DNA from: Thiohalocapsa sp.
GTDB taxonomy: Bacteria > Pseudomonadota > Gammaproteobacteria > Chromatiales > Chromatiaceae
NCBI GenBank assembly: GCA_021736785.1
Contig: JAIPFF010000028.1
Location: 1-64,000 of the forward strand
DNA: 64,000 bases
Reading direction: 5' to 3'
The notes under the pieces are model-generated. The model saw nothing but the letters and a program-made list of their open reading frames with translations. It did no database searches and was not told the DNA's origin. Position numbers and translations under genes: made by a program. Of the stretch, positions 37,983 through 54,242 are shown piece after piece. The first letter of the stretch is position 1. Each line of letters begins with the position of its first letter.

Positions 37983-40900
37983 TCAGGCAGCGTTGATGCC
38001 GAAGCTCATGCCGGGCTTGCCTTGGTTCCAGCGCTCCAGTTCGGTCATCAACATGCCGATGTGCGCGTGCTCCTCGGCCCGCAGCATCTTCAACAGCTTG
38101 CGCTCTTGCGTTCCGTCCTCGGCCACGGCAAGCCGTTCATCCAGTTTCTCCAGCGCCCGCTGCTCGAAGGCAATCGCGAGTCGAAGCAGATTATGCGGAT
38201 CCGCGGGATGCTGCTCGACATGTGCGAACTGGGCCGCACGTGCGAGACGAATCTCGGCCGAGTCATCCGGCGGCGTCGTGTGGAATCGTTTCGCCAACGT
38301 CTGCATCTGGCTATGCTCCAGCTCGGCAAAATGGTTGAACATGGCTCGGAGTACAGGGTCGTCCGCCTGCGGTGCGGCGCCGCGATAAAAGGCGTGCGCA
38401 CCGAGCTGGATTTCGAAAGCCGCGCGAATCGTGGCAATCGCCGCGGCGTTCTCCAGCGGCTCCGGTTCCACCATCGCGAGTTTGCCCCCGCAAAGCGCAC
38501 AGCGCCCGTAGGGCATGGCGACCCCCTCGCTGACCTTGCCGCAATCACTGCATTCCCAATGCACGGTTTGATCGCCGAGATGCACCTCGGAGCCCTGCTC
38601 CTCGAAGCGATGCTCCGCCTCCCCGACGCGGGCCATCGCCTCTGCCGGAGGCGCCGGCAGATTCGGCAGCGGGTGGGGCGCAACGAAGGCGTCCACCGCT
38701 TCTCGAGTCGGCGGCCAGACGGCACGGTTGCCGGACAACCAGCAGGCAATTGAGCGTGCCGCCCGGCGCCCGGCAGCCATCGCTAGGATCACCGTGGCGC
38801 CGCCGGTGACGATATCGCCGCCGGCAAACACCGCGGGCTTGGTGGTGGTCTGCAGCTTGTCGTCGGCGATGATATAGCCCCAACGGTTGCAGCCCAGATC
38901 GGCCGTGGTTTCCGGAATGATCGGATTCGCCCGCGTGCCGAGGGCGACGATGACGCTCTCGCAGTCGATTTCGCTGATGTCGCCGGTGCCCACCGGCGCG
39001 CGGCGCCCCCGCTCGTCCCGATCACCCAGTTCCATGCGTTCGACGCGAAGGCCGATCACATCGCCCTGGTCGTCGGTTATGACGGCCTTCGGCGCATGCA
39101 GGAAATAGAACTCGATGCCTTCCTCCTTGGCGTGGCGCAGCTCTTCCAGCCGGGCCGGTGCCTCCGCCTCGCTGCGCCGATAAACACAACGCACACGCTT
39201 TACACCTAGACGCTTGGCCACCCGCAGGCAGTCCATCGCGGTGTTGCCGGCACCGATGACCACGACGCTGTCGCCGAGCGCGACCGGCGTGTCTCTGTAG
39301 GGAAACTGATCGCCGCCCATCAGGTTGACGCGGGTCAAGAACTCGTTGGCCGAGTAGACCTGTCCGGCGGACTCGCCCGGAATGCCGAGCAAACTCGGCG
39401 CACCGGCGCCGACGCCGATATAGACGGCATCGAAACCACGCTCGACCAGCAACTGATCGATGCTGAACGTCTTACCGACGACTTTATTCGTTTCGAACTG
39501 CACACCCATGTCGCGCAGCACCTCGACCTCACGATCGATGATGTCCCGCGGCAGGCGGAACGGAGGTATGCCGTATTGCAGCACGCCACCGATCACATGC
39601 AGCGCTTCGAACACCGTCACCTCGACACCGCAGCGCACCAGATCAGCGGCGGCGGCGAGCCCGGTAGGCCCGGAACCGACGATGGCAACGCGGCCGAGGC
39701 GCCTTTCGAACATCGGCCGTTGAACGGTCTTTTGCGTGGCATTGTCGCCGACGAAGCGTTCCAGACGACCGATCGCAACCGGCTCCATCTTTGCGATCAG
39801 CACGCAGTGGCTCTCGCACTGGCTCTCCTGCGGGCAGACCCGGCCGCAAACGGACGGGAACAGATTGTTCTCGGTGATCACATCGCGCGCGCCGTCGATG
39901 TCGCGGACCAACAGGTGGCGAATGAACCGGGGGATGTCGATCTCGACCGGGCAACCGGCGATGCAGGTGGGGTTCTTGCACTGGATACAGCGCTCGGCTT
40001 CCTCGATGGCATCATCGATGGCGAAGCCGAGGTTGACCTCTTTGAAATGCCTGACGCGGCTCGCGGCGGGACGTTCCGGCATCGGCACCTGGGTCGGCAG
40101 CAGCGTCTTCAGCTTTTTGTAACTGCGCTTTTCTTCTTCGAACAGCAAGCGCTCGATATCGCAGAGGTGCGTGAACTCGGCATTGGCCTTGGCTTCCTGC
40201 GCCTTGAAGCGGCGCTGTCGTGCGAGCAACTCTTCGAAGTTGACCAAGTGACCGTCGAAATCCGGCCCCTCCACGCACGCAAAGCGCACCTTGCCGTCCA
40301 CCGTGACGCGACAGGAACCGCACATGCCCGTCCCGTCGACCATAATCGCATTCAGCGAGACCATGGTTTTGACGCCGAACGGGCGGGTGGTCTCGCAGCA
40401 GGCATGCATCATCGGGAGCGGACCGATCGCAATCGCCAGATCGGGTTGATCCTCCCGCATCAGATCGCGCAGCGCGTCGGTGACGAAGCCCTGGCGCCCG
40501 TAGCTGCCGTCGTCGGTGCAGACGATGAGGTCGTCCGTATATCGACGAAAACGGTCGAGCCAGAACATCAGCTCGCGATTGCGAAAGCCAACGATGGCGG
40601 TGACCCGATTACCCGCCTCCTTGAAGGCACGTAGTTGCGGGTAGATGGGCGCAATACCGAGTCCGCCGCCGACCAAGACGACATGACCCACCTTCGAGAT
40701 ATGCTGCGGCCGGCCGACGGGGCCGACGAAATCCTTGAAATAGTCCCCGGTCTTATAGCGGGTCATCATTTCCTTGGTCGACTTTCCCAGGGCCTGTATC
40801 ACCATGGTGACGATACCGGCCTCTCGATCGAAGTCTGCCACGGTGAGCGGAATACGCTCGCTGCCCTCGTGCAGACGCAGCATGACGAATTGGCCGGGTT

Positions 40901-40985
40901 GTGCGGCGCGCGCAATATCCACGGCTTGAACGTCCCACTGGAACACGATATCGGACAGAGTTTCGCTGCGGACGATTCGGTACAT
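37983..40985 (-). CDS. Nfn-like NAD(P)H:ferredoxin oxidoreductase fused to a rubrerythrin-like domain
   Basis: A 1000-residue multidomain redox protein. Residues 1-280 are NfnA/sulfide-dehydrogenase-beta-like: an FAD barrel, an NAD-binding GGGLGIAPIYPQL and a [2Fe-2S] site DGTGMCGSC (Cys222, Cys225, Cys237). Residues 310-790 are NfnB/GltD-like, with two [4Fe-4S] motifs (Cys333/336/341/345 and Cys380/384/390/394), an FAD site GSGPTGLAAAADL and an NADP site GAGNTAMDC. Residues 809-832 form a rubredoxin-like CxxC..CxxC ribbon. Residues 845-985 are a ferritin-like diiron domain, with Glu858, Glu888/His891, Glu941 and Glu972/His975. NfnAB normally bifurcates electrons; the appended rubrerythrin unit suggests NAD(P)H-driven peroxide reduction (inference). 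AGGAGG precedes ATG 40985. Confidence 0.93.
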   Translation of the reverse strand: MYRIVRSETLSDIVFQWDVQAVDIARAAQPGQFVMLRLHEGSERIPLTVADFDREAGIVTMVIQALGKSTKEMMTRYKTGDYFKDFVGPVGRPQHISKVGHVVLVGGGLGIAPIYPQLRAFKEAGNRVTAIVGFRNRELMFWLDRFRRYTDDLIVCTDDGSYGRQGFVTDALRDLMREDQPDLAIAIGPLPMMHACCETTRPFGVKTMVSLNAIMVDGTGMCGSCRVTVDGKVRFACVEGPDFDGHLVNFEELLARQRRFKAQEAKANAEFTHLCDIERLLFEEEKRSYKKLKTLLPTQVPMPERPAASRVRHFKEVNLGFAIDDAIEEAERCIQCKNPTCIAGCPVEIDIPRFIRHLLVRDIDGARDVITENNLFPSVCGRVCPQESQCESHCVLIAKMEPVAIGRLERFVGDNATQKTVQRPMFERRLGRVAIVGSGPTGLAAAADLVRCGVEVTVFEALHVIGGVLQYGIPPFRLPRDIIDREVEVLRDMGVQFETNKVVGKTFSIDQLLVERGFDAVYIGVGAGAPSLLGIPGESAGQVYSANEFLTRVNLMGGDQFPYRDTPVALGDSVVVIGAGNTAMDCLRVAKRLGVKRVRCVYRRSEAEAPARLEELRHAKEEGIEFYFLHAPKAVITDDQGDVIGLRVERMELGDRDERGRRAPVGTGDISEIDCESVIVALGTRANPIIPETTADLGCNRWGYIIADDKLQTTTKPAVFAGGDIVTGGATVILAMAAGRRAARSIACWLSGNRAVWPPTREAVDAFVAPHPLPNLPAPPAEAMARVGEAEHRFEEQGSEVHLGDQTVHWECSDCGKVSEGVAMPYGRCALCGGKLAMVEPEPLENAAAIATIRAAFEIQLGAHAFYRGAAPQADDPVLRAMFNHFAELEHSQMQTLAKRFHTTPPDDSAEIRLARAAQFAHVEQHPADPHNLLRLAIAFEQRALEKLDERLAVAEDGTQERKLLKMLRAEEHAHIGMLMTELERWNQGKPGMSFGINAA

Positions 40986-42008: not shown

Positions 42009-42623
42009 ATGATACAAGTCTCCTATGTCAGTACCGTCGCTAACCCGATCTCTGCGGAGCAGCTGCTGGCCCTGCTCATGCAATGCCGCAAGAATAACGC
42101 CGCTCAGGATGTGACCGGCATGCTGCTCTATGGCAACGGCACGTTCCTACAAGCAATTGAAGGCGACGAGCAGGTGATTGACGATTTGGTCGAGACGATC
42201 TGGGCCGATCCGCGACACGAGAAGATCAAGCTCCTGAGCCGCCGATCGATATCACGTCGGGAGTATGCGGATTGGAGCATGGCCTTCGAGCGAATTTCGG
42301 ACGAAGGTAACTGGAAGGTAGAGGGGCTGAAGAGCTTCGCTGCGTCCGATTTCAACTACGACTACCTGGTGGGTCATGAACCGGTCGTCACGGCGCTGAT
42401 GGACCGATATCGCGAACCGCACTTCGACCAACTTATCGGCGAGATCAATGCGAAAGACAAGGTAATCGAGCACCTCAAGGCGGCACTGGCGCAGGTGCAT
42501 GACCGGGCGCAGGTCACGCGATTGGCGCTCGAGAGTCTCACGGAGGCGGCGCGGCGCGGAGAGTGCAGCGACGCGCTGTTGGACATGTGTAATACCACCA
42601 TTGCGAGTGTGCGCCCGAAATGA
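42009..42623 (+). CDS. BLUF-domain blue-light sensor protein
   Basis: A 204-residue protein with an N-terminal BLUF (FAD-binding blue-light sensing) domain, about 1-95. All photocycle residues are present: Tyr6 in QVSYVS, Asn30 in CRKNNA, Gln48 in TFLQAIEG, and Trp89/Met91 in ADWSMAF. The remaining 110 residues are helical with a charged coiled-coil-like region (NAKDKVIEHLKAALAQVHDR) and no recognised output domain. ATG 42009 is chosen because it aligns residue for residue with the paralogous BLUF domain at 45155; ATG 41997 four codons upstream is an alternative, and neither has a strong Shine-Dalgarno sequence. It faces the second BLUF gene across the fasciclin gene. Confidence 0.92.
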   Translation: MIQVSYVSTVANPISAEQLLALLMQCRKNNAAQDVTGMLLYGNGTFLQAIEGDEQVIDDLVETIWADPRHEKIKLLSRRSISRREYADWSMAFERISDEGNWKVEGLKSFAASDFNYDYLVGHEPVVTALMDRYREPHFDQLIGEINAKDKVIEHLKAALAQVHDRAQVTRLALESLTEAARRGECSDALLDMCNTTIASVRPK

Positions 42624-43288: not shown

Positions 43289-43906
43289 CTACAACAAGCG
43301 ATCGATAACGTGCACGACCCCATGCTCAAACTCTGCGGTGCCGATAACGGCTGCGCCATTGACTGACCGGGTTCCGCTCCAGTCGGCAGCAATCTTGGTG
43401 CCGCTCCAGGACAGGAACGTTGCGCCAGGCCGGAGCTCTGGTCCGGTCAGTCTGCCGGAGACCATGTGCGCGCCAACTAATGACCGCAATGCCTTGGGGT
43501 TATGGACCAATGCGTCAATCTCCTCTCCGGAGCGTCGCGAAAAGGCGCTGTCGACCGGAAGGAAGAGCGTATAGGGCCCATCGTCGCGCGGTATCGAGCC
43601 CCAACTGTTTGCCCGGAAAAGACTCGTGAAGAATTCAACGGAGACGCGTTCGTCGACCGTGCTGGTCAGCCGATTGCCGAGCACCTCCGCAACGAAGCCG
43701 TTCCAGGTAACGCCTTTGGTCTTGACGGCAGACCCTTGGTTGGCGACTGGCGTTTGCCCCGGAACCTGCGCCGTGCTGTTGGACGAACCGACGGCTTCGG
43801 TGCGTGGCCCGGTTTCCAAAGACAGGGCCACGGCTGGGGCGAACAGGGCCGCGACGATGATCAGGATCTTCGTGTTCGACGGACGAAATGCTTTGACAAC
43901 CTGCAT
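43289..43906 (-). CDS. Exported fasciclin-domain protein
   Basis: A 205-residue secreted protein. An N-terminal signal peptide (core about 13-28, ALS cleavage) and a short Ser/Thr-rich linker precede one fasciclin (FAS1) domain, about 80-205, with the family markers GPYTLFLPVDSAFSR, LVGAHMVSGRL, and an H2-type ending VVHVIDRLL. FAS1 domains mediate adhesion or binding in the periplasm or extracellular matrix. Start ATG 43906 has GGAGAAA about 6 bases upstream. It stands alone between two BLUF genes; a functional link to light sensing is suggested only by position. Confidence 0.92.
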   Translation of the reverse strand: MQVVKAFRPSNTKILIIVAALFAPAVALSLETGPRTEAVGSSNSTAQVPGQTPVANQGSAVKTKGVTWNGFVAEVLGNRLTSTVDERVSVEFFTSLFRANSWGSIPRDDGPYTLFLPVDSAFSRRSGEEIDALVHNPKALRSLVGAHMVSGRLTGPELRPGATFLSWSGTKIAADWSGTRSVNGAAVIGTAEFEHGVVHVIDRLL

Positions 43907-44243: not shown

Positions 44244-45155
44244 CTAACTTCCGTTGCCAGCGGCGTTATCGGGTCGCTGGAAACGTGCACCGAGGACCGT
44301 CTTGCGGTCCATCAGCCAATAGACAATGCCAAGCGCCAAGACGACCGCCGCAGTGGCTAGGATATACATCGGCTGCAGCTTCTCGAAGTCGAAGACGATG
44401 ACCTTCCGGGCGATTGCCATGAGGGCCGTCGCGATCACCAGTCGCACATGTACCACATCATCCCGCAGGTACAGGGTGATGTTCATAAAGATCTCGATCG
44501 CGATCAGCACCGCCAGGAAGGCGCCGAAGGTCACGACGATCTCACGCACGCCGAAGTCTTGGATCGCCGGCATGAAGAGTTGACGGTAGAGCGATTCGCC
44601 GACGTCGACCACTCCCCAAAGGATCGTGATCACCATGAATACCGCAAGGACCCGGACTGCGCCGCGGATGATCCGATGCAGGATATTCATCATCCGGTCC
44701 TCTTCGTCCACACCGAGCTCGCTCTGGCCGATGGTCTTCAGGCGCTGGCGCCGAAAGTGGTCCATCAGGCTCTGCACGATCGCGGTCTGCCGACCGAGGT
44801 AGTCGGCATTGAAATCCTCCTCACTGAAATTCCGCAGCCCTTCGATATGCTGAAGGTCTCGCTGCGAGACACGCTGGAAACCCATGCTCCAGTCTGAATA
44901 CTCGCGGTGTTGGATCGCCTTGCGTTGAATGACCTGCATGCCCGCGTGGCGAGGATCTTGCTCGATGATGTCGAGCAATTCATCAATCACACGTTCGTCG
45001 CCTTCCAAGACCTGCAGGAAGGTTCCGTTGCAGTAGAACAGCATCCCGGTGACCCCCCTGTCGGCGTTGTGCTCTCGGCAGCTTTGCAACAAGGCGAGCA
45101 GCGCCTGCTGCGACATGGGCTCAGTGGCAGAGCTGATGTAGGCGATCTGAATCAT
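44244..45155 (-). CDS. BLUF photoreceptor fused to a PsiE-type membrane domain
   Basis: A 303-residue protein. Residues 1-95 are a complete BLUF domain: Tyr6 in QIAYIS, Asn30 in CREHNA, Gln48 in TFLQVLEG, Trp89 and Met91 in SDWSMGF. A linker (about 96-155) leads to four predicted transmembrane helices (about 165-290) resembling PsiE (phosphate-starvation-inducible E) proteins, with VLAVFMVITILWGVVDVG, GAFLAVLIAIEIFMN and the YLRDDVVHVRLVIATALMAIARKVI block. A flavin light sensor would thus be hard-wired to a membrane domain of unknown activity. ATG 45155 is where BLUF similarity begins; the frame remains open for 145 codons upstream but looks non-coding. Confidence 0.93.
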   Translation of the reverse strand: MIQIAYISSATEPMSQQALLALLQSCREHNADRGVTGMLFYCNGTFLQVLEGDERVIDELLDIIEQDPRHAGMQVIQRKAIQHREYSDWSMGFQRVSQRDLQHIEGLRNFSEEDFNADYLGRQTAIVQSLMDHFRRQRLKTIGQSELGVDEEDRMMNILHRIIRGAVRVLAVFMVITILWGVVDVGESLYRQLFMPAIQDFGVREIVVTFGAFLAVLIAIEIFMNITLYLRDDVVHVRLVIATALMAIARKVIVFDFEKLQPMYILATAAVVLALGIVYWLMDRKTVLGARFQRPDNAAGNGS

Positions 45156-45754: not shown

Positions 45755-45947
45755 ATGCCGCGCACCAAGAACGAAGTCCTCACCATCCGCACAACCACCG
45801 AGGTCAAGGCGCTGCCGACACTGGCCGCCGAGCGCGAGCCCCGCTCCGCCGCGTCCATGGTCGAGGTGCCGGGGCAGGACTACGCGACGCCATGGCCTTG
45901 CCGACCCGCTGCGCCCCGTGCGCAGGGGCGCCCCCAAGGACCAATGA
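45755..45947 (+). pseudogene. Ribbon-helix-helix (antitoxin-like) gene, apparently frameshifted
   Basis: From ATG 45755 the frame reads [19 protein letters not shown], then [16 protein letters not shown], a ribbon-helix-helix pattern. After about 45885 the natural continuation ([18 protein letters not shown], ending at TGA 45945-45947) is found in another frame, while the original frame turns Pro/Ala-rich and overlaps hsdM. This implies one small indel. If intact it would be a small DNA-binding regulator or antitoxin just upstream of hsdM. Confidence 0.45.
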
Positions 45948-45960
45948 GTACGCCAAGACA

Positions 45961-48314
<2,354 letters not shown>

Positions 48315-48318
<4 letters not shown>

Positions 48319-48485
48319 AAGCGTTTGAGCCGCGGAAAGTGCGGAAAGACGCAGAACTGCTTCAGCGTTTTTCTGCGACTTCAGCGGCTAAAAATTCGGA
48401 AGAGTTGCCGCAGAAAACGCAGAAAGACGCAGAAAATGGAGACGGTTACAGTCTCATGGAGACGTTGCGGGAGGTTCATTCGTGA
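48315..48485 (+). CDS. Small open frame in the hsdM-hsdS junction insert
   Basis: A 56-codon frame starting at GTG 48315, which overlaps the hsdM stop as GTGA. It encodes a charged peptide ([18 protein letters not shown] and [14 protein letters not shown]) and ends with LREVHS, the same ending as HsdM. Its stop overlaps the hsdS GTG start in the same GTGA way as the presumed original hsdM-hsdS junction. It probably serves to keep translation coupled through the insert; an independent function is unproven. Confidence 0.4.
48456..48485. repeat. hsdM 3'-end duplication, right copy
   Basis: Second copy of the hsdM terminus (28/30 identical to 48289-48318), placed directly at the hsdS start. Confidence 0.88.
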
Positions 48486-49822
48486 GTGGTCGGTACGCAG
48501 CTCATTCCAGCTATCAGGACTCAGGACTCGACTGGCTGGGGCGCATCCCGCAAACTTGGAAATTGCGACGGCTAGGCACCTACTTCCGGGAACGAAGAAC
48601 TAAGGTCAGTGACGCCGAGTACTCGGCACTGTCAGTCACGATGCAGGGCATAGTCCCGCAGCTAGACACCGCCGCTAAGACGAACGATGGCGACAGCAGA
48701 AAGCTGGTGCGTGCTGGCGACTTCGTGATTAACAGCCGATCTGACCGAAAGGGCTCCTCAGGAGTCTCTCCCTTCGATGGATCGGTGTCCCTTATCAGCA
48801 TCGTTCTAGAGCCACTCGGCATCCAATCGCGATTCGTGCACCACCTCCTGCGGAGCAACGCCTTCCAGGAAGAATTTTACCGCTTTGGCAAAGGCATTGT
48901 TGCCGATCTGTGGAGCACGAACTACGCCGCGATGAAGAACATCGTCATTCCAGTGATGTCGTGGCAAGAACAAACCCAAATCGCCAAGTTCCTCGACTAC
49001 GAGACTTCGAGGATTGATGCGCTGATCGAGAAGCAGCAGCAGCTCATCGCCTTGCTCAAAGAGAAACGTCAGGCCGTCATCAGCCATGCAGTCACCAGAG
49101 GCTTGAACCCCGACGCCCCCATGCGCGATTCCGGCGTCGAATGGCTGGGCGACGTCCCGGCGCATTGGGAGGTGAAGCGGCTGAAGCATCTCTTCACGGA
49201 GCCGTTGCGCAACGGTGTCTCTCCTCAAGCAGCGGAAACCGGCGGAAGCCCGACATTCTCGATAGCTGCTGTACGGGATGGCGTTGTTAACGTCCGATCT
49301 CATGTGAAGTATGCCGACATCTCCGGACATACCGCCCACCCCTATAGAGTGCAGCAGGGCGATGTAATGATGATGCGCGGAAACGGAAGCCGAGATCTCG
49401 TTGGATCTGTTGGAATCGTTGACGCACAGCCCCCAGACGGCTGCATCTACCCTGATATCCTCATTCGACTGCGCTTTTCCAAAGAGATCGACGCGCAACT
49501 GGCTGTACTGTTTTTGAACAGCACGATATCCCGCCCCCAGGTGGTGATGGGGGCGAAGACTGCGGCTGGTATCTGGAAGGTGTCCGGGGCAACGGTAGCC
49601 GAATTCGCGATCACGGTTCCGCCGCAGGGCGAGCAAGCAAGAATACTCGACTACCTGAATGCCGAGCTACAGAAGGCGGACGACCTCGTGGCGCTTGTCG
49701 AGTCGCAAGGGACTTTGCTCCAAGAACGCCGCACCGCCCTCATCTCCGCCGCCGTCACCGGCAAGATCGACGTGCGCGGCTGGAGGCCTCCCGACTTCGC
49801 GGCCGAAGCGGAGGTCGCATGA
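48482..49822 (+). CDS. hsdS: Type I restriction-modification system, specificity subunit
   Basis: A 446-residue HsdS that recognises a bipartite DNA sequence through two target-recognition domains. The two halves each begin with the same signature: DSGLDWLGRIPQTWKLRRL (about 13-31) and DSGVEWLGDVPAHWEVKRL (about 216-234). Each TRD is followed by a conserved helix, EQTQIAKFLDYETSRID and EQARILDYLNAELQKAD, which set the spacer length. Start is GTG 48482 in a GTGA overlap with the preceding frame. Its stop overlaps ATG 49819 of an hsdR remnant (ATGA). The recognition sequence cannot be predicted by eye. Confidence 0.96.
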   Translation: MSGRYAAHSSYQDSGLDWLGRIPQTWKLRRLGTYFRERRTKVSDAEYSALSVTMQGIVPQLDTAAKTNDGDSRKLVRAGDFVINSRSDRKGSSGVSPFDGSVSLISIVLEPLGIQSRFVHHLLRSNAFQEEFYRFGKGIVADLWSTNYAAMKNIVIPVMSWQEQTQIAKFLDYETSRIDALIEKQQQLIALLKEKRQAVISHAVTRGLNPDAPMRDSGVEWLGDVPAHWEVKRLKHLFTEPLRNGVSPQAAETGGSPTFSIAAVRDGVVNVRSHVKYADISGHTAHPYRVQQGDVMMMRGNGSRDLVGSVGIVDAQPPDGCIYPDILIRLRFSKEIDAQLAVLFLNSTISRPQVVMGAKTAAGIWKVSGATVAEFAITVPPQGEQARILDYLNAELQKADDLVALVESQGTLLQERRTALISAAVTGKIDVRGWRPPDFAAEAEVA

Positions 49823-49929
49823 GCGCCGACGCCAAAGAAGCCGCCTTCCAGCAGGACATCATCGACCCGATGTGTGATGCCGACTGGCAGCTCTCGCCGT
49901 CCGCACCCCGCACGGAGGCCACTGGATGA
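49819..49929 (+). pseudogene. Duplicated 5' fragment of hsdR
   Basis: A 36-codon frame starting ATG 49819 (SADAKEAAFQQDIIDPM, and so on) that copies the first 18 codons of hsdR (SDSKEAAFQQDIIDQM) before diverging and stopping at 49929. A block of 35 bp (49833-49867) is identical to 50957-50991 in the intact hsdR. It overlaps hsdS and the next gene by ATGA on both sides. It marks the original hsdS-hsdR junction, now separated by a 1.1-kb insert. Confidence 0.8.
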
Positions 49930-50474
49930 GTGCCGAGTTTTCCAAGTCCGCGCCCTTGTTCGAGGACATCCAATCGCTGATCGATTCCGCCCGTCAGCGG
50001 GCGACCGTGGCGGTGAATGCGGAGCTGACCTTGCTCTATTGGCAGGTGGGTCAGCGGATACAGACGGAAGTCTTGCGCGGCGAGCGGGCCGAATATGGCA
50101 AGCAGGTGATCGCGGGACTTGCCGAACGGCTGACCGCCACCTACGGCAAAGGCTGGAGCCGCAAGCAGTTGCATCATTGTCTCCGCTTTGCGGAGACATT
50201 TCCCGACCGCCAGATTGTCTCCGCGCTGCGGAGACAGTTGAGCTGGACACACATCAAAGCGCTGATTTATATAGAAGACCCCCTCAAGCGCGACTTCTAC
50301 ACCCAGATGGCGCAACTCGAAGGCTGGTCTATCCGCACGCTGAGCGAACGCATCAGGAAGATTGGAAACTACGAAACACGCAAAATGCGCGAAAGAAGAG
50401 TGGAGGCTTCCGTGTGGATCGAGTTTTTTCGCGCTTTTCGCGTGTTTCGTAGTTCAAACAAAATGTGCGACTAG
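49926..50474 (+). CDS. Truncated DUF1016 (YhcG-like) protein, N-terminal domain only
   Basis: A 182-residue protein matching the N-terminal helical domain of DUF1016/YhcG proteins: LFEDIQSLIDSARQRATVAVN, LLYWQVGQRIQ, YGKQVIAGLAERL, WSRKQLHHCLRFAETFPD and LEGWSIRTLSERI. Full-length members (about 340-375) continue with a PD-(D/E)xK nuclease domain. Here the sense ends near residue 146, exactly where a 15-bp repeat starts, and the last 35 residues are Arg-rich filler. It is probably a truncated, possibly inactive gene carried by the insert between hsdS and hsdR. Confidence 0.82.
   Translation: MSAEFSKSAPLFEDIQSLIDSARQRATVAVNAELTLLYWQVGQRIQTEVLRGERAEYGKQVIAGLAERLTATYGKGWSRKQLHHCLRFAETFPDRQIVSALRRQLSWTHIKALIYIEDPLKRDFYTQMAQLEGWSIRTLSERIRKIGNYETRKMRERRVEASVWIEFFRAFRVFRSSNKMCD
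50367..50381. repeat. 15-bp repeat, inverted copy
   Basis: aactacgaaacacgc, the reverse complement of the repeats at 50440-50454 and 50900-50914. It sits at the point where DUF1016 similarity stops. Confidence 0.85.
50436..50454. repeat. 19-bp repeat, direct copy 1
   Basis: tttcgcgtgtttcgtagtt, identical to 50896-50914. It lies just before the GxxExxY gene; with 50367-50381 it can form a long stem. Confidence 0.88.
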
Positions 50475-50501
50475 TCCTTGAACGCGAAAGGCACGAAGAC
50501 G

Positions 50502-50912
50502 ATGACCGGAGAAATCCTTTTCAAAGAACAAAGCTATCGCATCGTCGGAGCTTGTTTCGAGGTCTACAAAGAGAAAGGCAACGGCTTCTTGGAAGCGGTG
50601 TATCAAGAATGCCTGGCTCGCGAGCTGCACGAGCAAGAGATTCCGTTCGAAGAAAAGCCTCGGCTTCGACTCGAGTACAAGGGCCACGCGCTGCGGCAAG
50701 AGTACCAGCCAGACTTTGTCTGTTACGGCGAGATCATTCTCGAAATCAAGGCGGCCAAGCAGTTGACCGACGAGCACCGGGCGCAAGTGATCAACTACCT
50801 GAAGGCAACAGGTAAGCAGCTTGGCTTGCTAGTCAACTTCGGCCACTACCCGAAGATCGAGCACCAACGCTTCGTCAATCAACGCCTTTCGCGTGTTTCG
50901 CGTGTTTCGTAG
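50502..50912 (+). CDS. GxxExxY protein
   Basis: A 136-residue member of the GxxExxY family (signature GNGFLEAVY), with ARELHEQEIPFEEKP, YQPDFVCYGEIILEIKAAKQL and HRAQVINYLKATGKQLGLLVNFG. The D..ExK arrangement in the second half resembles a PD-(D/E)xK nuclease-like core, though activity is not established. The last residues (RLSRVSRVS) are encoded by the flanking repeat. Start ATG 50502 is preferred; a TTG at 50478 is possible. It is framed by 19-bp direct repeats (50436-50454, 50896-50914), as if it were a small mobile cassette. Confidence 0.93.
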   Translation: MTGEILFKEQSYRIVGACFEVYKEKGNGFLEAVYQECLARELHEQEIPFEEKPRLRLEYKGHALRQEYQPDFVCYGEIILEIKAAKQLTDEHRAQVINYLKATGKQLGLLVNFGHYPKIEHQRFVNQRLSRVSRVS

Positions 50913-50914
50913 TT
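50896..50914. repeat. 19-bp repeat, direct copy 2
   Basis: Identical to 50436-50454. It overlaps the last codons of the GxxExxY gene and includes its stop codon. Confidence 0.88.
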
Positions 50915-50942
50915 GCAAAAAATGACCGGCAAGAGAACGCTG

Positions 50943-53900
50943 ATGACCAGTGACAGCAAAGAAGCCGCCTTCCAGCAGGACATCATCGACCAGATGATCG
51001 CGGGCGGCTGGCGGCTCGGCGAACCCGCCGGCTACGACCGCGAACGGGCGCTGTATACCTCTGACTGCCTGGCCTACGTCAAGACGACTCAGCCGAAGGC
51101 TTGGGAGAAGTACCAGAAGCTCTACCCGAGCAACCCCGAGCAGGCGTTTATCGACACGCTCGCCGCCCAGCTCGGCAAGGCCGACCCGCACGCATCGGAC
51201 AAGAGCCTGCGCACCTTCGGCACCCTGGGGGTGCTGCGCCACGAGCTGCGCGACAAGTCCGCCGCCTTCAAGCTCTGCCAGTTCAAACCCGAGCATGGCC
51301 TGAACCCGGATACCCTGGCCATGTACGCGGGCAACATCCTGCGCCTGGTGCCGGAGCTCGTCTACAGCCCCTATGCCACCGCGGCCCATCTCGTGGACAC
51401 CGGTAGCAAGTCCAAGGCCTGGCGCATCGACCTGGTGCTGTTTCTCAACGGCATCCCCGTCGTCACGCTGGAGCTGAAGAGCGAGTTCAAGCAGGCGGTC
51501 GACAACGCCATCAGGCAGTACAAGAAGACCCGCCTGCCGAAAGACCCCGCGACCAACAAGCCCGAGCCGCTGCTGACCTTCAAGCGCGGCGCGCTGGTGC
51601 ACTTCGCCGTCAGTCAGTACGAGGTGTACATGACGACGAAGCTGGCGGGCTCCGAGACGCGCTTCCGCCCCTTCAACCGCGGCACCGCGGACGGCGGCGC
51701 GGGCAACGACCTGCCCGAAGACGTCGACACCCATGCCACCGCCTACCTGTGGAATCAGGTGCTGGCCCCGGCCAACCTCCTGCAGATCATCGGGCGCTTC
51801 ATCCATCTGGAGATCGAGACCGAAGAGGCCTGGGACGGGCGCAAGACCAAGAAGGAGAACCTGATCTTCCCCCGCTACCACCAGTGGGATCTGGTCACCC
51901 GGCTGGTGCAGGCCAGCCGCGAGGAAGGCCCCGGCCATAAGTACCTCGCCCAGCACAGCGCGGGCTCGGGCAAGTCCAACTCCATCGCCTGGACCGCGCA
52001 CCAGCTCGCGTCGCTCTACGACAACTCTCCAGGAAAAGGGGGCGAGAAGGTGTTTCACTCGGTCATCGTGGTGACCGACCGCACCGTGCTCGATGACCAG
52101 CTGCAGGACACGATCTACCAGTTCGAGCACGCCGATGGCGTGGTCGGGCGCATCAACCGGGACGAGGGCCAGGGCTCCAAGTCCGAGAAGCTGGCGCACG
52201 CGCTGGAGCACAGCCAGCCGATCGTCATCGTGACCATCCAAACCTTTCCCTATGTGCTCAAGGCCATCCAGGACAGCGTCAGCCTCAAGGAGCGCCGCTA
52301 CGCGATCATCGCCGACGAGGCGCACTCGTCGCAGTCCGGCCGCACGGCGGGCAAGCTGAAGGCGGTATTGACCAGCGAGGCCCCGGATGACCCGGATGAC
52401 CCGGATGAGGCCAGTGTCGAAACAAGCGCCGAGGACATGCTGGCGGCCAGCGTCGCATCACGCCGCGCCTCGCCCAACCTCAGCTACTACGCCTTCACCG
52501 CCACGCCCAAGAGCAAGACGCTGGAGCTGTTCGGGCGCTTGCCCAATCCCGACGAGCCGCCCTCGAAGACGAACAAGCCGCGGGCGTTTCACGTCTACAG
52601 CATGCGCCAGGCGATCGAGGAGGGCTACATCCTCGACGTGCTGAAGAACTACACCAGCTACAAGGTGGCCTACAACCTGGCGCAGAAGGTCGCGGCGGCA
52701 GACACCGAGGTCGACAGCAAGAAGGCCAAGGTCAAGCTCAACCAGTGGGTGCGCCTGCACGACTACAACATCGCCCAGAAGGTGATGGTGATCGTCGAGC
52801 ACTTCCGCGGCACGGTGCTGGGGCTGCTGGGCGGGCACGCCAAGGCGATGGTGGTGACGGGCTCACGTAAAGAGGCGGTGCGCTACAAGCTGGAGTTCGA
52901 CAAGTACATCCAGAAGAATGCCTATAGCCAGTTGCGGGCGATGGTGGCCTTTTCCGGTGACGTCAGCTTCAACGCCGCCGACCCGCACAGCCAAGACCTG
53001 CTCGGCGAGACCTTCACCGAGACCGGCATGAACCCCGACCTCAAGGGGCGGGATCTGCGCAAGGCCTTCGACACCGACGACTATCACGTCATGATCGTCG
53101 CGAATAAGTTCCAGACCGGTTTCGATCAGCCCAAGCTCTGCGCCATGTACGTGGACAAGAAGCTCGGCGGTGTGGACTGCGTGCAAACCCTGTCGCGCCT
53201 GAACCGGATCTACCCCGGCAAGCAGGAGACCTACGTCCTCGACTTCTTCAACGAGCCCGCCGATGTGCTGGCGGCGTTTCAGGAGTACTACCAGACCGCG
53301 CAACTGCTCGATGTGTCGGACCCGAACCTGATCTGGGACCTGTTCGAGAAGCTGCGGGGCGCCGGCATCTTCCTGTGGACCGAGGTCACGCAGTTCAGCG
53401 AGGTCTTTTTCACCAAGAGCAAGAGCAACGCCGCCATCGGCAATCTGTGCAAGCCGGCAGTGCAACGCTGGCAGGCGCGCTACGCCCGGGCGCAGGCCGA
53501 CTATGCCAAACACAAGAAGCTATTCGACCACGCCAAGTCGCTGAACGATGCGACCTTCATCGCCAATACCGAGACGGACATGCAGGCGTCCAAGCGCGAG
53601 CTGGACGGGCTTGGGCTATTCAAGACCGACCTGGTGGCGTTCACGCGCTACTACGAGTTCATGTCCCAGATCGTCGATTACGACAGCCACGACCTGGAGC
53701 GGCTGAGCCTCTACGCGAGACATCTCGCCCCGTTGCTGCGGGAGAAGGCGCCAAATGAAGATCCCATTGACCTGAGTTCCGTGGAGTTGAGCCACTACCG
53801 CCTGTCGAAGCTCAAGCAGCAGGATCTGCTGATGGTCAAGGACGTTGAGGGGGGCCTGTATTCGGGCGGGGACCTGGGCACCGGCAAGCCCAGGAACAAA

Positions 53901-54242
53901 GAAGACGCATGGCTCTCACAGATCATTAGCCGTCTCAACGAGCTGTTCGTGACCGACGGGCTGACCGACAAGGATCTGATCAACTACGCGCGCACGATCC
54001 GCGACAAGGTCCGTGAAAACCAGCGGGTCATGCACCAGATCGCCAATAATTCCCGAGAGCAGGCGTTGCTCGGCGACTTCCCCGGCGCGCTCGACGACGC
54101 CGTAATGGAAAGCGGCGAGGCGCACCAGAACCAGATGATGCAGTACCTCAACAGCAAGGAGCTGCAGGCCGGGTTTCAGAGGGTGGTCTTCGACATGCTG
54201 CTGGCGGGGGAAGCGCCGGCAGCCGGCAATGGCGGTGTGTAA
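50943..54242 (+). CDS. hsdR: Type I restriction-modification system, restriction/translocase subunit
   Basis: A 1099-residue HsdR, the ATP-dependent DNA translocase and endonuclease. The N-terminal nuclease domain has the PD-(D/E)xK set: Asp163 and Glu177-x-Lys179 in ELKS. The SF2 helicase motor follows with Walker A SAGSGKS (about 339-345), DEAH at 458-461, FTATP and the late QTGFDQP and SRLNRI motifs. The C-terminal region would contact HsdM. ATG 50943 is chosen by alignment with the duplicated 5' copy at 49819; ATG 50922 is also possible. A short Asp/Pro microrepeat (DDPDDPDEA) sits near residue 485. The gene looks intact. Confidence 0.97.
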   Translation: MTSDSKEAAFQQDIIDQMIAGGWRLGEPAGYDRERALYTSDCLAYVKTTQPKAWEKYQKLYPSNPEQAFIDTLAAQLGKADPHASDKSLRTFGTLGVLRHELRDKSAAFKLCQFKPEHGLNPDTLAMYAGNILRLVPELVYSPYATAAHLVDTGSKSKAWRIDLVLFLNGIPVVTLELKSEFKQAVDNAIRQYKKTRLPKDPATNKPEPLLTFKRGALVHFAVSQYEVYMTTKLAGSETRFRPFNRGTADGGAGNDLPEDVDTHATAYLWNQVLAPANLLQIIGRFIHLEIETEEAWDGRKTKKENLIFPRYHQWDLVTRLVQASREEGPGHKYLAQHSAGSGKSNSIAWTAHQLASLYDNSPGKGGEKVFHSVIVVTDRTVLDDQLQDTIYQFEHADGVVGRINRDEGQGSKSEKLAHALEHSQPIVIVTIQTFPYVLKAIQDSVSLKERRYAIIADEAHSSQSGRTAGKLKAVLTSEAPDDPDDPDEASVETSAEDMLAASVASRRASPNLSYYAFTATPKSKTLELFGRLPNPDEPPSKTNKPRAFHVYSMRQAIEEGYILDVLKNYTSYKVAYNLAQKVAAADTEVDSKKAKVKLNQWVRLHDYNIAQKVMVIVEHFRGTVLGLLGGHAKAMVVTGSRKEAVRYKLEFDKYIQKNAYSQLRAMVAFSGDVSFNAADPHSQDLLGETFTETGMNPDLKGRDLRKAFDTDDYHVMIVANKFQTGFDQPKLCAMYVDKKLGGVDCVQTLSRLNRIYPGKQETYVLDFFNEPADVLAAFQEYYQTAQLLDVSDPNLIWDLFEKLRGAGIFLWTEVTQFSEVFFTKSKSNAAIGNLCKPAVQRWQARYARAQADYAKHKKLFDHAKSLNDATFIANTETDMQASKRELDGLGLFKTDLVAFTRYYEFMSQIVDYDSHDLERLSLYARHLAPLLREKAPNEDPIDLSSVELSHYRLSKLKQQDLLMVKDVEGGLYSGGDLGTGKPRNKEDAWLSQIISRLNELFVTDGLTDKDLINYARTIRDKVRENQRVMHQIANNSREQALLGDFPGALDDAVMESGEAHQNQMMQYLNSKELQAGFQRVVFDMLLAGEAPAAGNGGV

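Follow-up and report, generated by a model that had tools for sequence, protein, structure and literature searches.

A BLUF blue-light sensor domain joined to a PsiE-type membrane domain in a single protein of a purple sulfur bacterium, with counterparts in distant bacteria

Can a flavin-based blue-light sensor be wired directly to an integral-membrane domain? The question was raised by a gene in a 64,000-nucleotide stretch of Thiohalocapsa sp. DNA (contig JAIPFF010000028.1, positions 1 to 64,000; hereafter, the window). The original prediction, made from sequence alone, held that one 303-residue protein joins a complete BLUF domain to four transmembrane helices resembling PsiE, and that this might constitute a light-controlled membrane device of a new sort. 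Translation of the minus strand (a point on which the prediction was silent) from the ATG at 45155 to 44244 yields 303 residues plus stop, with Tyr6, Asn30, Gln48, Trp89 and Met91 at the positions given. A longer in-frame reading from a GTG start (448 aa) exists; we take the ATG, at which the 21 fusions of our main alignment were started and from which they align without an N-terminal gap. Pfam profiles identify BLUF (PF04940) at residues 1-92 (44880..45155, minus strand; E 5.3e-30, 103.8 bits against a cut-off of 25) and PsiE (PF06146) at residues 167-285 (E 3.8e-36, 124.4 bits against a cut-off of 23.9). The membrane domain as a whole spans residues 166-285 (44301..44660, minus strand), with four hydropathy peaks at 165-183, 206-224, 237-255 and 263-281; loop charges are compatible with a cytoplasmic location of both termini, although this topology is inferred. 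The observation was thus correct. The absence of a significant PsiE match in the C-terminal half had been specified beforehand as grounds for rejecting it, and the opposite was found.

The other outcome that had been set down in advance as fatal to the proposal was a sequencing error joining two genes. To examine this point, we looked for the same one-frame architecture elsewhere and found it in 31 distinct genomes of three phyla, the 30 others being 38-88% identical to the window protein. Among 210 genomes of the same family, 14 (this one included) have one match over both domains, at 64-88% identity for the other 13; the joining of the two domains is not chance. A search of a wider collection of contigs found 99 relatives, of which 80 were kept; 20 of the 80 hold both domains in one frame, nine of them being the same contigs as family genomes and 11 adding to the count. 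The scan relied on only two BLUF peptide patterns and can miss divergent fusions. The 20 comprise Chromatiaceae-type records (Thiocystis, Thiorhodococcus, Thiodictyon, Lamprocystis, Thiococcus and others), metagenome-assembled genomes named Rhodopila (two), Hyphomicrobium and Rhodospira, four Nitrospirales/Nitrospiria, one Nitrospinaceae and two Methylococcaceae. In a phylum sample, 5 of 398 genomes besides the source genome, all in one family (designated f207), carry the fusion at 38-40% identity, and the same 5 were the ones to match among 74 genomes of f207. One more case (locus L148 of genome G457; L and G numbers denote our loci and genomes) came from a survey of PsiE in the class. Carriers include the cultured strains Thiocystis violacea DSM 208, Lamprocystis purpurea DSM 4197 and Thiococcus pfennigii, and a 484,824-base plasmid record of Candidatus Thiodictyon syntrophicum, where the protein is annotated only as a PsiE family protein.

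Sequence comparisons showed the fusion to be conserved as a unit. Against the two nearest named orthologues, dN/dS is 0.06 for BLUF, 0.12 for cap and linker and 0.09 for PsiE (Thiocystis violacea, L060), and 0.07, 0.08 and 0.08, respectively (L061), indicating purifying selection on each part. Values are 0.11-0.13 against L062, and 0.23 for BLUF and 0.15 for PsiE against L064, where the linker is saturated; against L072 synonymous change is saturated throughout. In 21 of 21 aligned fusions the five BLUF residues are invariant, as are Glu146, Leu147, Asp153, His160 and Arg164 in the cap and linker segment (residues 93-165; 44661..44879, minus strand) and Glu221, Arg231, Asp233, Arg250, Lys251 and Asp256 in the PsiE part. 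Across 35 diverse PsiE domains Arg250 is invariant and Glu221 at least 90% conserved; the protein has the four TM helices and the conserved Glu and Arg of the family. In the f207 fusions, which are not among the 21, Glu221 is Asp. A motif resembling that of the linker (acidic, Asp, then LH..IR) is also visible at the N terminus of close stand-alone PsiE proteins. This suggests that BLUF was added in front of PsiE's own cytoplasmic start. A tree of 65 PsiE rows (29 BLUF-fused) requires 2 changes of label (2-4 in bootstraps); one origin is not ruled out, and several rows have long branches. No relative was found in viral contigs with either the fusion alignment or a PsiE alignment, and a fusion query (L078) against phages gave matches over the BLUF part only, in 2 records.

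Structure prediction supported the assignment of the sensor half. The AlphaFold model is good for BLUF (block pLDDT 75-91 over residues 1-90) and moderate for the cap helices (73-81 for residues 91-140), with predicted helices at 98-102, 117-122, 124-143 and 154-194 and low confidence at residues 141-160 (39-41). The best Foldseek matches are BLUF proteins (Tll0078, PixD, BlrB, BlsA and others), headed by Tll0078 (1x0p_H, E 1.4e-11), with a TM-score of 0.83 by target length for 2byc_B. The membrane part was poorly predicted in two runs (mean pLDDT 65.6 for the whole protein and 64.6 for residues 111-303); helix packing, oligomeric state and any pore were therefore not interpreted, and the second model was not searched. 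No PsiE relative has a solved structure in the PDB copy used.

We then asked whether the genes near the fusion point to a function. In the Nitrospirales, loci L072, L074 and L075 have a MerR-B12-type regulator and a 2-thiouracil desulfurase/DUF1722 gene, and L073, L074 and L075 a photolyase (Pfam for the L072 regulator and the L074 photolyase and desulfurase, tblastn for the rest; L072 extends only 1 kb downstream and L073 1.2 kb upstream). In the two Methylococcaceae a MerR-B12 regulator is divergent from BLUF-PsiE, with no photolyase in range; the distance is 156 bp in L078, where molybdopterin-oxidoreductase and ferric-reductase-like genes and a short PAS/LOV-like gene (Pfam PAS; flavin cysteine motif read by eye) are also near. 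Hits of a LOV query in L079, L170, L171 and L199 were weak (24-28% identity) and were not counted; only L078 holds a PAS/LOV-like protein. In f207, L170 reads photolyase, 2-thiouracil desulfurase (by tblastn), an unknown, lipocalin, BLUF-PsiE and ferrochelatase on one strand, the lipocalin and BLUF-PsiE frames overlapping by four bases (ATGA, stop included). This gene run includes a 199-residue protein (L170:5671-6267, plus strand) without Pfam or NCBIfam match at E 0.001. L171 is similar by tblastn, L169 has MerR, glutathione peroxidase and BLUF-PsiE, and L168 and L172 have neither photolyase nor MerR-B12, only weak desulfurase hits.

Overall, photolyase was found in 5 of 35 fusion records (31 distinct; the 4 duplicates have no hits), 1 of 20 PsiE-alone loci and 0 of 60 BLUF-alone loci; MerR-B12 in 5 of 35, 0 of 20 and 0 of 60; the desulfurase in 9 of 35 (two weak), 1 of 20 and 0 of 60; and lipocalin in 5 of 35 (L062 and L178 being one contig), 1 of 20 and 1 of 60 (L118). 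The MerR-B12 query was the B12 half only; the B12 domain of the L072 regulator scores 31.4 bits, just under the Pfam cut-off of 32.1, and the MerR proteins of L169 and L192 show no B12 domain. The BLUF-alone controls are what one pattern scan returned, many of them Burkholderiales, and one (L099) runs off its contig end inside the gene; the PsiE-alone loci were picked by hand from the family, class and phylum surveys. The PsiE-alone locus with photolyase (L192) is a near relative and sits with MerR, lipocalin, cyclopropane synthase and CbiX-like genes. Photolyase or a MerR gene thus lies near 9 of 31 distinct fusions (four Nitrospirales/Nitrospiria, two Methylococcaceae, three of five f207). 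As these derive from three lineages, within which records are not independent, the independent count is small. In the window's own family, none of the 14 loci has photolyase, MerR-B12 or desulfurase in the sequence examined (only 4.0 kb for L063 and 5.4 kb for L071), and one (L062) has a lipocalin; six further fusion loci (L067, L069, L070, L076, L077 and L173) also lack photolyase and MerR-B12. Whether the fusion belongs to a MerR/photolyase photodamage gene group is therefore a point on which the neighborhoods speak both ways. In Vibrio cholerae, MerR (VCA0056) and phr (VCA0057), of one predicted operon, go up in blue light (PMC5241685); no BLUF-PsiE appeared in the text consulted.

Further links between the two domains, and between PsiE and other functions, emerged from the class survey. 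In 369 genomes, PsiE occurs in 144 and BLUF in 48; by comparison of the lists 22 have both, and at least 2 of these are fused (G000 and G457) and at least 1 (G252) has separate BLUF and PsiE genes as divergent neighbors (L190:5535-5945, minus strand, and L190:6224-6715, plus strand). From the same survey we took 11 PsiE places with long open frames, leaving aside a few of similar length. One was BLUF-PsiE, one a TerC family membrane protein fused to PsiE (L150:767-2227, minus strand) and one protoglobin, a haem-sensor family, fused to PsiE in one frame (L153:1557-2750, minus strand); the N-terminal stretches of the other 8 were judged by eye to be upstream non-coding sequence and were not scanned. 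Close stand-alone relatives have a Kef-type antiporter gene (Na_H_Exchanger plus TrkA_N) in 3 of 11 loci, as against 0 of 9 more distant PsiE loci, 0 of 60 BLUF-alone loci and 0 of 35 fusion records, so that the Kef link rests on PsiE-alone relatives. In L183 (4477-6635) the antiporter and PsiE genes overlap by four bases (ATGA), and universal stress protein and P-type ATPase genes lie near this and related PsiE genes. The heat-resistance locus LHR also encodes KefB and PsiE (PMC7010813), and kefB of LHR is needed for survival of alkaline chlorine (PMC8067161). These findings point to envelope ion and stress physiology for PsiE, but only by association.

Taken together, the data are best accounted for if the protein is a membrane-embedded blue-light receptor, an interpretation that we hold with moderate confidence. 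What the analysis establishes is the architecture: a complete BLUF domain, BLUF-type cap helices, a conserved linker and a complete four-helix PsiE domain, in one protein conserved as a unit. The rest is inference. In this view BLUF lies in the cytoplasm and binds FAD; blue light would rearrange the Tyr6/Gln48 hydrogen bonds, and the change would pass through the beta-sheet, the cap helices (about 98-143) and the invariant linker residues (Glu146 to Arg164) into TM1 and alter the PsiE four-helix bundle. The first steps follow from established BLUF chemistry, whereas transfer to PsiE is inferred from linker conservation and the fused architecture. The output is inferred more weakly, from neighborhoods: it may be protection of the cell envelope against light-driven oxidative damage, possibly by acting on ion or proton balance, alone or through a partner transporter. 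We consider blue-light sensing very likely, a photo-oxidative role as likely as not, and a role in ion balance doubtful. Neither flavin binding nor the 10-15 nm red shift in blue light was measured, and no physiology was done. The interpretation put forward in the original prediction is supported, in that a light-controlled membrane device is consistent with the results, but it stays an inference, the biochemical activity of PsiE being unknown. The recurrence in other phyla, the photodamage gene neighborhoods and the other PsiE fusions were beyond its reach.

Among the alternatives, the one that survives best, though it appears unlikely, is that the signal runs the other way or both ways, PsiE sensing a membrane state and tuning BLUF, or BLUF integrating redox or temperature with light. 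BLUF proteins that do so exist (AppA, BlsA), and some carriers belong to groups not known as phototrophs (Nitrospirales, Nitrospinaceae). However, inspection of the PsiE alignment by eye, without a dedicated search, revealed no known ligand or redox motif, and the light-damage genes found near the fusion in three lineages favor light as the input. Somewhat less likely still, PsiE could be only an anchor holding BLUF at the membrane, where it would act on other proteins as a PixD- or BlsA-like partner-binding sensor. Many BLUF proteins have no effector domain and act by binding partners, and a second BLUF protein lies nearby in the window. Against this, PsiE carries charged residues in its helices that are conserved family-wide (Glu221, Arg250), which an anchor would not need, and evolves under constraint comparable to BLUF; it is also fused to protoglobin and TerC and stands beside BLUF as a separate gene in L190. 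A role in phosphate-starvation physiology with light as a co-signal is improbable. The PsiE name comes from a phosphate-starvation-inducible E. coli gene, but the protein scores only 19.9 bits against the NCBI PsiE equivalog model (NF002763; cut-off 138), and thus is not orthologous PsiE. In the frame lists read by eye the only phosphorus-related frame noticed was a PhnD-like one in L079; Pho boxes were not sought and expression was not examined. Finally, an artefactual joining of two genes has nothing in its favor and is refuted by the occurrence of the same frame in 31 genomes.

A more far-reaching possibility, which the data do not rule out but which we regard as unlikely, is that PsiE is itself an ion- or proton-conducting or transporter-gating bundle gated directly by BLUF. 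The protein would then be a natural flavin-based light-gated membrane device unrelated to rhodopsins, used to reset envelope ion balance under photo-oxidative stress, with protoglobin-PsiE as a haem-sensing sister device.

The protein shares its BLUF core and cap helices with short BLUF proteins (PixD/Tll0078, BlrB, BlsA), but these end after the cap helices and are soluble, whereas here the chain continues into a four-TM domain. Like the photoactivated adenylyl cyclases bPAC and OaPAC, which were found by sequence and fold, it has BLUF with a C-terminal output on one chain; the output there is a cyclase. It belongs to the same Pfam family as E. coli PsiE and the PsiE of LHR, but classic PsiE stands alone without a sensor. 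In L153 and L150 PsiE is likewise C-terminal to another domain, with a haem-sensor-type or TerC membrane partner in place of BLUF. NCBIfam has no match above cut-off for the protein. Literature searches on BLUF with PsiE, transmembrane BLUF proteins in purple sulfur bacteria, BLUF with LitR and photolyase, BLUF architectures, BLUF with phosphate starvation and globin-coupled PsiE showed no such protein in titles and abstract openings, a result that falls short of proof given the partial coverage of subscription papers and preprints. What appears to be new, then, is a BLUF receptor with an integral-membrane output. Known BLUF photoreceptors have soluble outputs; a conserved integral-membrane output would add a new kind of light-to-membrane signaling. 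Because the trigger is light, it would also give a handle on PsiE, a widespread membrane family, and it may offer a flavin-based optogenetic membrane tool.

The source genome has three BLUF domains and a single PsiE domain, the one described here. It also has two photosynthetic reaction-centre genes, so the organism is probably a phototroph. Within the window, a second BLUF protein of 204 aa without PsiE (42009..42623, plus strand; PF04940, E 2e-29) is 49% identical to the fusion over residues 1-140 and has a long C-terminal extension; BLUF-only frames of similar length occur in several Burkholderiales loci (for example L087, L089 and L090). A fasciclin-domain protein (43289..43906, minus strand; PF02469, E 2.9e-16) lies downstream of the fusion on the same strand. 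A functional link to the fusion is not shown for either neighbor, and none of the genes around the fusion points to its function. On the other side lies a type I restriction-modification-like block (45892-54242, plus strand), with an hsdM-like frame at 45892-48318 (67 bits, below the cut-off of 242.75), hsdS- and hsdR-like frames recognized by eye, and small frames between. Further away, 37983-40985 (minus strand) encodes a 1000-residue protein resembling the trifunctional flavoprotein/glutamate synthase beta/ferritin-like family (NF009413, 1631.9 bits, below the cut-off of 1895).
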